From a virus: a DNA stretch of 37,447 nt. Under the pieces are notes generated by a model. That model made no database searches. It was not told where the DNA came from and was given only the letters and a program-made list of their open reading frames with translations. The position numbers and the translations under genes are program-made. Every line of letters starts with the position of its first letter. Positions within the stretch are counted from its first letter, which is position 1. The DNA is taken from IMG/VR virus record IMGVR_UViG_3300032053_000224, positions 1 through 37,447 of that record; one strand, given 5' to 3'. This document shows positions 1,225 to 32,936 of this stretch, one piece after another.

Positions 1225-1800
1225 TTAAATTTTTTCTATTTCTGTTTCTGTTAATAAACTAGTTCCTTTAGAAGTTTCTGTCCATGCACTAGTTCCTTTA
1301 TTCTTTTCTGTTAATAAACTAGTTCCTTTAGAAGTTTCTGTCAATTCACTAGTCCCTTTAGTCTTTTCTGTCCATCCACTAGTCCCCTTAGAAGTTCTTA
1401 TCCAAAACATATTAGTTCTACAAGTATCAATTAATTGTAATAATTCGCTAAAAGTTAATGACCCAGATGTTTCTTTAGAATCTATGATACCTAAGGTTTC
1501 GGCTTTTGCTTGAGTTGTTGATGTTACCTTAGAATCTATGATATTTAAGGTTTCGGAAAAGTTAATAAATATAACCCAAGTGTCAATAATAGAAAGTGTT
1601 TCTGCTTTTGATAAATTCCCTGAGGTTGCCTTGGTATCTATAATAGAGAGTGTCTCATCTTTTGTTTTTATACCGGATATTGTTTTTATATCTATTATAT
1701 TCAAAGAAATTGCATCAGTAAGTAAACCTATATCATAATTTGATTCATCATATCCTTGTCCAACTGTATCAAATTTACTATCTGGTATATAAGTTGGCAT
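1225..1800 (-). CDS. Repeat-built tail protein (IID repeats and KGTS/W repeats)
   Basis: This is a 191-aa protein made almost wholly of two repeat classes. Residues about 28-125 hold around six units of some 19 residues built on LxIIDxKxTSG. Residues about 138-187 hold five 10-residue units of the form KGTSxWTExS or KGTSxLTExS. Short W/T/S/K repeats like the second class occur in tail fibres and tail-tip proteins of many phages. A clear AAGGAGTAATAT site precedes the ATG. It lies between two other tail-surface genes. The repeats imply an extended fibrous or beta-solenoid shaft whose length could change by recombination. Exact function is unknown. Confidence 0.65.
   Translation of the reverse strand: MPTYIPDSKFDTVGQGYDESNYDIGLLTDAISLNIIDIKTISGIKTKDETLSIIDTKATSGNLSKAETLSIIDTWVIFINFSETLNIIDSKVTSTTQAKAETLGIIDSKETSGSLTFSELLQLIDTCRTNMFWIRTSKGTSGWTEKTKGTSELTETSKGTSLLTEKNKGTSAWTETSKGTSLLTETEIEKI
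1234..1390. repeat. Five tandem 30-bp coding repeats
   Basis: Five direct repeats of 30 bp, each around the core ACTAGTYCCYTTA, lie inside the tail repeat gene. They are in frame and encode the KGTS(x)(W/L)TE(x)(x) units. Units alternate between a 'TTAATAAACTAG' and a 'TCCATSCACTAG' form, which suggests expansion by duplication of a 60-bp pair. They are not CRISPR: there are no spacers and the repeats are translated. Confidence 0.85.
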
Positions 1801-29200: not shown

Positions 29201-29568
29201 TATTTTTCACCTCCTCCCAATCCTTTAATAATTATTTCCGTTCTCGGGTTTTCCTTATCCACATTAAATATAATATTGGGTTGCCCTATAACATCATAAC
29301 AATCATCAACTATAATATTCTGATCCACTAAAACATCTATCCAAGCAATTAATCCACCACCTAAAAAGTTAGCCACATCACGCTTTCGTTTAGTTTTGAA
29401 ATAGATATTAAAAGTTAATTTTGCCTTTTTATATTTAGGTCTTTTTTTGTTTAGTAACGCCTCTTCTATTAACCAGAATATCAATGTCTTATATGTTTTT
29501 CTTTTTGCCCAATGCATATTCACATATTTATTCTTGCTCAATGGCACTTCATTAATGGTTAATTTCAT
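29200..29568 (-). CDS. rusA: RusA-like Holliday junction resolvase
   Basis: This is a 122-aa protein, the usual RusA size. The motif KRDVANFLGGGLIAWIDVLVDQ-type region (residues 62-83) followed by IIVDDCYDVIG holds the acidic residues of the RusA family (Asp64, Asp78, Asp82, Asp88/89), and NPRTEIIIKG closes the domain. RusA enzymes cut four-way DNA junctions, which in phages resolves replication or recombination branches before packaging. The start overlaps the previous stop (ATGA). It fits with the nuclease and annealing protein encoded further upstream. Confidence 0.85.
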   Translation of the reverse strand: MKLTINEVPLSKNKYVNMHWAKRKTYKTLIFWLIEEALLNKKRPKYKKAKLTFNIYFKTKRKRDVANFLGGGLIAWIDVLVDQNIIVDDCYDVIGQPNIIFNVDKENPRTEIIIKGLGGGEK

Positions 29569-30816: not shown

Positions 30817-31548
30817 TTAACCCCCTTTATCCAAATCATTCTTTAAAGCCGTTACCAGCCAGCCCACTGGATTCCTGATATTCTCTAAATATTTAAGCTC
30901 CTCAAAATATTTCTCTATCTTCTCCACCGGATATTTTTTAAATAGGCCATCTAAAAAACTTTCTTTAAAGCAACCAGACACCAGGTCCAGCATCTCTTTC
31001 TTTAACAACTTCTCTTTTTCCTTAGAGGAGTTATCCACAGTTTCCACAGTTTCCACAGGAGAAACACACACCACATCTTCCTTTTGTGTTTCTTTATTAG
31101 TTTCTTTAAGAGTTTCTTTACGGTCTGGCAAAATCTTATTCTGTAATGGTTTGGGGTCTATCAAACTTGACGATTTATCAAGTTTCGCTTGACTTTTTAT
31201 CAAGTTTCGCTTGATAATTTGTCCAGTTTTACTTGACGATTTATCAAGTTTCCATTTATCCCAATGTTCATTAAATTGATAACAGCCATCTTTTATAATC
31301 ATTTTATCTTCAATAACCATTTTATTAATAATTCTGTTAAATTGGCATTCATCCATTCCTATATCATCAGCTATTTGTCTTTTGGTTAATTCTTTAGTAT
31401 AATCTTGCCTTCTACTTTTCCCATCAAACCCCCAAGACCAACGAATAATATAAAATATTATTCTCATTTCATCTTTATTTAGCAAACCTTTAGCAAATAT
31501 ATTTATCAATATTTCATTCTTTATGGGAGTGGAATTTTTTGGTATCAT
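30817..31548 (-). CDS. Replication initiator, lambda O-like (phage replisome organizer)
   Basis: This is a 243-aa protein. Residues about 7-95 form the winged helix typical of phage O-type N-termini: NEILINIFAKGLLNKDEMRI, IIRWSWGFDGK, then TKRQIADDIGMDECQFNRIINKM. A low-complexity linker (about 96-165) coincides with the repeat arrays in the DNA. The C-terminus YPVEKIEKYFEELKYLENIRN with NPVGWLVTALKND resembles the helicase-recruiting end of phage and plasmid initiators. The protein should bind the iterons inside its own gene and load the host helicase. It overlaps the HNH gene by 4 bp. Confidence 0.8.
   Translation of the reverse strand: MIPKNSTPIKNEILINIFAKGLLNKDEMRIIFYIIRWSWGFDGKSRRQDYTKELTKRQIADDIGMDECQFNRIINKMVIEDKMIIKDGCYQFNEHWDKWKLDKSSSKTGQIIKRNLIKSQAKLDKSSSLIDPKPLQNKILPDRKETLKETNKETQKEDVVCVSPVETVETVDNSSKEKEKLLKKEMLDLVSGCFKESFLDGLFKKYPVEKIEKYFEELKYLENIRNPVGWLVTALKNDLDKGG
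31031..31058. promoter_or_regulatory. DnaA-box cluster
   Basis: TTATCCACA at 31031-31039 equals the consensus DnaA box. Two 9-bp repeats follow at once (GTTTCCACA at 31040-31048 and 31049-31057) that differ from it by one or two bases. The cluster lies within the initiator gene, about 110 bp from the iterons, and probably brings host DnaA to the phage origin. Confidence 0.65.
31088..31123. repeat. Three 12-bp AT-rich direct repeats (possible unwinding element)
   Basis: GTTTCTTT begins at 31088, 31100 and 31112, with exactly 12-bp spacing. Units are GTTTCTTTATTA, GTTTCTTTAAGA and GTTTCTTTACGG. One strand is nearly pure pyrimidine. This resembles the 13-mers of oriC and the AT-rich, strand-biased region beside the iterons in lambda ori. 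It is translated as (K)ET-type repeats. Confidence 0.55.
31165..31252. repeat. Four tandem 22-bp iterons inside the initiator gene
   Basis: Units start at 31165, 31187, 31209 and 31231. The first and fourth are identical, the second has three changes and the third is degenerate. Each intact unit is an inverted repeat ACTTGA-N7-TCAAGT, fitting a dimeric binding protein. As 22 is not a multiple of three, the units are read in different frames, so DNA-level selection keeps them alike. Lambda ori has four iterons in the middle of gene O in the same way. Confidence 0.85.
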
Positions 31549-31937
31549 TTATCAATCTTGTTTCCTTTTTCTCTATTACATTTTTTACATAAAGTTTGTA
31601 AATTATTTATTTCGGTAACTCCACCCCTTGAAAACGGAACGAGATGATCTATGACTAAATTAAGAATATTGGTATCACCACAAAGCTTACATCTATAATT
31701 ATCTCTTTTAAAAATTGTATTTCTTAATTCTTCAGCAATAACTCTTCTTATTATTTTAATCTTTATATTTTTTTCATCATCATTGGGAAGAAAATTATTA
31801 TATTTATATAATTTTTCTAAACATTCATAACAAAGGTCAAAATCTTTTTCCTTCCAATATAAAGTTGGTCTACCATCATCTTTATTACACATATCACAAA
31901 TATGTGTATAACCACCTATAATTTCATATGCTTTCAT
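31545..31937 (-). CDS. HNH endonuclease with N-terminal zinc finger
   Basis: This is a 130-aa protein. Residues about 13-45 carry two CxxC pairs (CDMC, CYEC) of a small zinc finger. Residues about 75-130 form a classic HNH nuclease: FKRDNYRCKLCG, then IDHLVPFSRGG, then NNLQTLCKKCNREKGNK. It may be a DNA-processing or packaging-related nuclease, or a mobile nuclease like the one at 11344-12024. It overlaps the initiator start by 4 bp and its own ATG overlaps a 21-codon frame. Type by motif is certain, the role is not. Confidence 0.8.
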   Translation of the reverse strand: MKAYEIIGGYTHICDMCNKDDGRPTLYWKEKDFDLCYECLEKLYKYNNFLPNDDEKNIKIKIIRRVIAEELRNTIFKRDNYRCKLCGDTNILNLVIDHLVPFSRGGVTEINNLQTLCKKCNREKGNKIDK

Positions 31938-32213: not shown

Positions 32214-32936
32214 TTAATTTTTTATATCAACATCTAATATGCAGGCATTAACGTTCGTCCCACTTTCAGCAAAAGATTTTTCCGGTAATTCTATGATTTT
32301 CCCATTTAACCTTTTTATCTTTTCCCTAAATGCTATAGTTTTTTTATTCGTTCTAAATAATATAGAATTTGACATAACAGTTACTACTTTCCGCCTTGCC
32401 AATTCCAACATATGCTCAACGTGTGTTATATCTTGCTGGTTTGAAAATGGGGGATTTGCGATAATAACATCATAATATTTACCATTAAATTCTAAAAAAT
32501 CTATTCCTACAAGATTAAAATGATTCTTTATTAAATAAGATATATTGTCTTTATTAATTTCAATACAATCGCATTTAAAAATATATTTAGCTATTGCTCC
32601 CCTTCCTGCACTGGGTTCTAATATTGTTTCATCCTCTTTAATTCCTGCCATTTTAATTAAAAGTTTAGCGATATTTTCAGGAGTTTCAAAGAATTGATAT
32701 TCTTTTTTTGGGTCTGTATATTCGCCTGTCAATATTATATTTTCGATAGAATTCTCTGGAGATTCACTAAATATATGGGATTTTGTTTTTCTATTCCACT
32801 TGCCACCTATTGACTCTAAAACTTTATTAATTTTTAAATATAAGTTTCGTTCAAATTGTTCATCTGGCAAATAAAGATTATTGCCTTCTATAACTGAATT
32901 TCCTAATACATTAGATACATCATTATCTATTTTCAT
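32214..32936 (-). CDS. N6-adenine DNA methyltransferase
   Basis: This is a 240-aa protein. The order is QFFETP (residues 81-86), the SAM-binding motif LEPSAGRG (106-113) and the catalytic NPPF (161-164), which is the amino-methyltransferase pattern of adenine-N6 enzymes of phages. The first 70 residues (IGGKWNRKTKSHIFSE) form a small extra domain seen in similar phage proteins. No restriction gene is next to it, so it is probably an orphan that protects phage DNA or marks it. An AGGAGGGTAA site precedes the ATG. Confidence 0.8.
   Translation of the reverse strand: MKIDNDVSNVLGNSVIEGNNLYLPDEQFERNLYLKINKVLESIGGKWNRKTKSHIFSESPENSIENIILTGEYTDPKKEYQFFETPENIAKLLIKMAGIKEDETILEPSAGRGAIAKYIFKCDCIEINKDNISYLIKNHFNLVGIDFLEFNGKYYDVIIANPPFSNQQDITHVEHMLELARRKVVTVMSNSILFRTNKKTIAFREKIKRLNGKIIELPEKSFAESGTNVNACILDVDIKN

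Follow-up and report, generated by a model that had tools for sequence, protein, structure and literature searches.

The question raised by this locus is whether four tandem palindromes in the middle of a virus gene form a replication origin recognised by the protein that the same gene encodes. The DNA analysed comes from an uncultured phage; the whole stretch, 37,447 bp long and referred to as the window, is a virus record in which nearly all genes lie on the minus strand. As judged from the sequence and from analogy with phage lambda, the palindromes are very probably the iterons of a lambda-type origin located within the initiator gene and bound by its product.

The iteron array and its non-coding constraint

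The gene and the repeat units, numbered in gene order, are as follows.

30817–31548, minus strand: initiator gene, 243 aa, with a lambda O-like N-terminal domain and a C-terminal helical domain (AF2 models)
31231–31249, no strand assigned: iteron 1, ACTTGA-N7-TCAAGT, perfect arms
31209–31227, no strand assigned: iteron 2, arms 4/6
31187–31205, no strand assigned: iteron 3, arms 5/6
31165–31183, no strand assigned: iteron 4, perfect arms, same as iteron 1

The array (31165–31249) is built from four 19-bp palindromes of the form 6-N7-6, each extended by 3 bp to give a period of 22 bp. Four gapless 22-bp units had been described in a sequence-only reading of this DNA, and their starts (31165, 31187, 31209, and 31231) and spacing (22, 22, 22) were reproduced here, as was the identity of the first and fourth units, which extends over the 22-mers. 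The same reading had assigned ACTTGA-N7-TCAAGT to each intact unit; this applies to the units at 31165 and 31231, but not to those at 31187 (5/6) and 31209 (4/6), and in gene order the arm complementarity is 6, 4, 5, and 6 of 6. The array is also the top palindrome array of the whole window (21/24), the next scores being its own overlapping registers, and the best array elsewhere in the window scores 16.

The iterons occupy codons 100–128 of the 243-codon gene, directly C-terminal of the N-terminal domain, and since 22 cannot be divided by three, the array runs through all three reading frames. An alternative explanation for the repeats would be a low-complexity linker, rich in Lys, Leu, Asp, and Ser, whose coding DNA has become periodic by chance or by replication slippage. 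The linker is indeed rich in Lys and Ser, slippage does produce tandem repeats, and other tandem repeats exist in the window, but the period is out of frame and the codon shuffles rule this explanation out. With the peptide kept constant and the phage's own codons redistributed in 20,000 synonymous shuffles, the recoded linkers gave a mean period-22 score of 30.4 and a maximum of 43, and none attained the 51/66 of the window. The four-unit palindrome score of 21/24 compares with a maximum of 17 among 500 recodings. Furthermore, relatives retain the palindrome, its phase, and its place although the peptide differs. The shuffles and the relatives together refute an origin of the repeats in the linker peptide, to which we assign next to no probability, and the periodicity is not a by-product of the protein sequence, as the sequence-only reading had argued from the broken frame. 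In another part of the window (1240–1396), in-frame tandem repeats of 60 bp and 30 bp are present within a minus-strand ORF (1225–1800).

The initiator and its N-terminal domain

Two features of the protein are relevant to DNA recognition.

31252–31548, minus strand: predicted N-terminal winged helix-turn-helix DNA-binding domain, residues 1–99 (AF2 and alignments)
31312–31350, minus strand: predicted recognition helix, residues 67–79; residues 65–72 covary with the iteron arms

The AF2 model of the N-terminal domain (pLDDT 80) has helices at residues 11–20, 25–36, 56–63, and 67–79 and wing strands at 83–86 and 89–92, and the domain is closed by the conserved Trp99. Comparison with Pfam Phage_rep_O (PF04492) gives an E-value of 3.3e-5 and 24.8 bits, where the gathering cut-off of 28.7 is not reached, and on this sequence evidence the domain is a remote relative of the family and not a member. 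The PHROG family phrog_277, annotated 'replication initiation O-like', is matched by 10 of the 14 members of the window's own protein family, and others match further O-like families; the window domain alone has no PHROG match at E 0.01. By the sub-cut-off Pfam match, the PHROG assignment through the family, and the winged helix-turn-helix model, the protein is an initiator with an O-like N-terminal DNA-binding domain. For the N-terminal domain, Foldseek returned winged helix matches that were weak and generic (Crp and MarR types), and for the C-terminal domain none. A profile search of the PDB gave no convincing solved relative of O-type initiators, and neither INPHARED phages nor PLSDB plasmids yielded a tblastn match to the initiator.

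An HNH endonuclease gene (31545–31937) overlaps the initiator start codon, and beyond it lies an N6 adenine methylase-like gene (32214–32936). Rfam and tRNA scans were empty. Among the window genes scanned, Pfam recognised neither a helicase nor a loader, which implies that host proteins or undetected proteins are needed. The sequence-only reading had proposed a self-contained origin bound by the initiator, and while the lambda-like part of that proposal agrees with our results, self-containment finds no support in them, given the absence of a Pfam-recognisable helicase or loader. The relative L001 differs from the window in this respect, with a DnaB-type helicase gene adjoining its initiator. 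GC skew, suggested as a check in the same reading, does not change sign at 31.2 kb and is uninformative since nearly all genes are on one strand.

Comparison with lambda ori and the elements beyond the array

As in the window, lambda ori (NC_001416, 39034–39118) consists of four inverted repeats of the 6-N7-6 type inside gene O. The likeness to lambda, which had been pointed out beforehand, is borne out by the 6-N7-6 geometry, the A-rich spacer, and the place after the same conserved Trp codon. The lambda iterons are ATCCCT-CAAAACG-AGGGAA and similar sequences, with A-rich spacers such as CAAAACG and CAAATTG, and the array begins one codon past the Trp that ends the N-terminal domain. The arm is ATCCCT in lambda and ACTTGA in the window, and the lambda iterons are spaced by 20, 24, and 23 bp, compared with a strict 22 bp in the window. 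The two N-terminal domains are about 17% identical, while the window C-terminus has no detectable relation to that of lambda O. No P gene was recognised beside the window initiator, and the combination of an O-like C-terminus with an adjoining loader P, characteristic of the lambda O/P subtype, was not found in the window genes scanned.

Beyond the array, towards the C-terminus, three further elements are present.

31088–31120, minus strand: 12-bp repeats, 2.8 copies by TRF (coding-strand type AAAGAAACTCTT), candidate unwinding element
31029–31058, plus strand: 9-bp repeats, TTATCCACA at 31031–31039 (exact DnaA-box consensus) followed by two GTTTCCACA
30817–31079, minus strand: C-terminal module including the 9-bp repeats, common to L002, where it stands behind a Lin1244-type N-terminal domain

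The iterons are followed by AAAGACACTATTACAAAAGAAAAAAGAAAAG in lambda and by AAAGAAACTCTTAAAGAAACTAATAAAGAAAC in the window, and the purine-rich, AT-rich tract of lambda encodes KDTITKEKRKD, its putative counterpart in the window KETLKETNKETQKED. The 12-bp repeats sit in place of the AT-rich tract of lambda, and this position makes the region a candidate for strand opening. Its codon choice is biased: family-wide, ACT encodes Thr in 20 of 25 cases within the repeat but in 54 of 162 elsewhere (p 1e-5), and CTT encodes Leu in 13 of 18 as compared with 53 of 280 (p 4e-6), with both significances inflated by shared ancestry. By nearest-neighbour energies, the stability of the repeat is average for the AT-rich genome of the window, and the profile did not single it out.

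The 9-bp repeats are weak candidates for DnaA sites on the basis of their sequence. The exact DnaA-box consensus (TTATNCACA) occurs at 29255, 30453, 31031, 31903, and 35593 of the window; four of these five boxes fall within 2.66 kb around the proposed origin, a clustering noticed post hoc that is matched by 0.2% of Markov sequences. Among the initiator genes checked, a DnaA box within the gene is found only in the window, L002, and L003.

Arrays in related initiators

Scans of IMG/VR and GTDB identified window-like N-terminal domains in L001, L008, L009, L010, L013, L014, L016 (with a protein identical to that of L017), L018, L019, L020, L023, and L024. The N-terminal domains of L028 and L022 are more distant, and L022 is the same contig as L005. 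A first GTDB scan, which used a two-sequence alignment, gave no match, and a second gave one Lokiarchaeota-labelled and one Caldiserica MAG contig. A close relative of the initiator gene is carried by L023 (JAHLWS010000037.1), a 9.7-kb contig binned as Lokiarchaeota that is likely of phage origin and possibly mis-binned; such labels are tentative guides to the host, since short contigs can end up in the wrong MAG. An IMG/VR pattern search for an iteron pair gave two matches, L005, which is a distant initiator gene, and L006, a chance match in a structural gene that was discarded. The weak search match L046 was likewise rejected, being a long enzyme-like frame that has no initiator domain.

Repeats of this kind stand directly after the conserved Trp in every listed relative, with the first unit beginning at nt 297–316 of each gene, directly past the Trp codon. 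A strict 22-bp spacing of four units is seen in eleven loci, including the window, and for every one of these the palindrome score is reached by none of 500 recodings. Nine loci carry an additional, fifth unit at a distance of 27, 34, or 37 bp on the upstream side of the array; there is none in the window. L010 has a period of 21 bp and a palindrome score of 22/24, L024 has five copies at 22 bp, and the L028 array consists of three imperfect units. When the palindrome test is fixed at 22 bp, it is not significant in L024, where 67 of 500 shuffles reach the score, or in L010 (498 of 500); the L024 array rests instead on direct repetition (0/500 shuffles) and the L010 array on its 21-bp period, and the L022 array is supported by repetition (0/500 shuffles). 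Across 16 loci, lambda included, the third position of the spacer is A without exception (74 units). The sequence-only reading had named relatives that keep the linker and lack the repeats as the refuting case, and the reverse was found: the repeats are kept and the linker peptide changes. Repeats occupy the corresponding place also in L042 and L044, which are still more distant; in L044 (1811–1917), these are TGTCCCCAAAAATGGGGACA repeats at 21–24 bp, an even-length palindrome, shortly after the Trp codon. Between the iterons and the 12-bp repeats, a conserved stretch encoding approximately LGxPNNxGDSIKNKD is found in L009, L013, L014, L016, L018, L019, L020, and L023, and is absent from the window, L001, and L008.

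The palindromes could in principle be operators at which the initiator, or another winged helix protein, represses the initiator gene or the downstream operon, with the origin located elsewhere. Operators for dimeric winged helix proteins are also palindromic, and among solved structures the N-terminal domain is best matched, though weakly, by generic regulators of the Crp or MarR type. However, the sites lie 100 codons into the gene, with three to five of them in phase at 21–22 bp, and they are followed by a conserved purine-rich repeat as in the lambda origin and unlike usual operators. The protein family, moreover, matches replication initiators, and the window contains no competing palindrome array of such design. 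We therefore consider an operator function highly improbable, and treat the palindromes below as putative iterons.

Linked change of the predicted recognition helix and iteron arms

From phage to phage the arms vary, in most cases on both sides at once. Across 49 units, the arm pairs 4/16, 5/15, and 6/14 change type yet stay 80–86% complementary, and the half-sites in the series of 16 loci range over ACTTGA, ACTTAA, ACTTGC, ACTAAC, GTGGGT, AGTTAT, GTGTTG, and ATCCCT; the arms of the L018 type read CTAACC..GGTTAG. In ten close relatives, half-site distance correlates with distance in residues 65–72 (Mantel r 0.80, p 1e-4), a value that is optimistic because the ten-locus set was picked after other loci were seen to differ; the partial r on the rest of the domain is 0.78. 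For the other residues in these ten loci, r is about 0 (1–55), 0.15 (56–64), and 0.47 (80–99). The first Mantel test had been dominated by the outlier L020, and was redone without it and then with a wider set. With 16 loci, residues 65–72 follow the half-sites with r 0.50 (p 0.0002), which is the safer figure although these loci are related and not independent; given the rest of the domain, which itself has r 0.44, the partial r is 0.33 (p 0.006). The distant L022 pairs the window-like half-site ACTTGA with a different helix, and a one-to-one code between helix and site does not therefore apply.

The linked change need not reflect compensating substitutions, since helix and iteron segment may instead have been exchanged as one recombination block, an explanation that concerns the linkage only and is compatible with an origin at this site. 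L013 and L019 are 100% identical over nt 1–170, 55–70% identical over nt 171–420, from the helix to the last iteron, and 88–98% identical over nt 421–540, and L018 and L019 have the helix–iteron block in common but not the C-terminus. These steps in identity argue for exchange, but the intervening residues 80–99 are closer to the iterons in the DNA than the helix is, and yet track them less well (0.47 versus 0.80). In addition, comparison of L008/L009 with the window and L001 resembles stepwise change, with one arm position altered along with residue 66. We consider block exchange about an even bet as the source of the linkage, and both processes may be in play.

Exchange of C-terminal modules

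At least six C-terminal types occur in combination with the helix–iteron cassette. One is that of the window, common to L002 and L003; a second is found in L008, L024, and L028 together with lambda (L008 versus lambda, E 3e-9); a third in L009, L018, and L020 (Phg_2220_C in L009); a fourth in L013, L014, L016, L019, and L023; a fifth in L010 and L022; and L001 has one of its own. The DNA of the window and L002 is nearly identical from 31079, just past the 12-bp repeats, to the gene end. Such sharing across different N-terminal domains implies that recognition and sites move as one part and the C-terminus, which presumably serves helicase recruitment, as another. Tentatively, and with a good deal more doubt than conviction, helix and array might be viewed as a compact specificity cassette of some 250 bp within one gene, which diversifying selection causes to be exchanged or to evolve anew and which would block origin use or titration by co-infecting phages or parasitic elements, with the C-terminal helicase-recruiting modules exchanged independently.

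Such an origin is in itself ordinary for lambda-like phages, and intragenic iterons that differ among lambda, P22, and L have already been published. What is added here is a finely graded series in which helix and sites change in a linked manner: sixteen initiators, counting lambda, each encoded by a gene that also contains its sites, several of them on near-identical scaffolds. As protein and target can be read from one sequence, the O-type recognition code becomes testable by a swap of about eight residues or of one block, and the series provides natural material on how such initiators choose their origin.

Proposed mechanism

In lambda, O dimers bind 19-bp inverted repeats within gene O, binding bends the iteron DNA further, and an adjacent 40-bp AT-rich stretch opens (PMC5043065, PMC7466680). 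By analogy, the window initiator would bind the palindromes through its N-terminal winged helix domain, probably as one dimer per palindrome, with the half-sites read by the recognition helix near residues 65–72. The four sites are spaced by roughly two turns of the helix, and their occupation would bend the array, with its A-rich spacers, and wrap it. The resulting strain would open the adjoining purine-rich 12-bp repeats, after which the replicative helicase or its loader would be recruited through the C-terminal domain. The sites and their non-coding constraint, the constancy of position and geometry across the relatives and lambda, the linked helix–arm change, and the C-terminal exchange are observed features of these sequences. 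Binding, dimer stoichiometry, bending, strand opening, and helicase recruitment we infer by homology to lambda.

Comparison with other systems

The initiators of lambda, P22, and L each have their own intragenic repeats and differ in origin specificity (PMC8022706). Similar to the window, gp18 of P22 and of phage L have the repeats inside their own coding region, a likeness based on the published description, although these differ in sequence (six 11-bp repeats in phage L) and the partner protein gp12 is a DnaB-type helicase. Iteron plasmids of the RK2, P1, and R6K types share with the window replicon-specific initiator sites in arrays that adjoin the opening region. Most plasmid iterons are direct repeats to which monomers bind (PMC5043065), whereas each window unit is itself palindromic and placed within a coding region.

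The Lin1244/Lin1753-type initiators L002 and L003 also contain the C-terminal module of the window with its 9-bp repeats, and their C-terminal 90 residues are 92% (L002) and 68% (L003) identical to those of the window. Their N-terminal domain (PF14297) is, however, unrelated, and their inverted repeats, GTTTCTGACGCAGAAAC, differ from the window iterons. GTTTCTGACGCAGAAAC occurs twice, 225 bp apart, in both L002 (5791–5807 and 6016–6032) and L003 (6055–6071 and 6280–6296), where the copies are possibly the origin sites of these initiators; the second copy in each lies within an overlapping inverted repeat.
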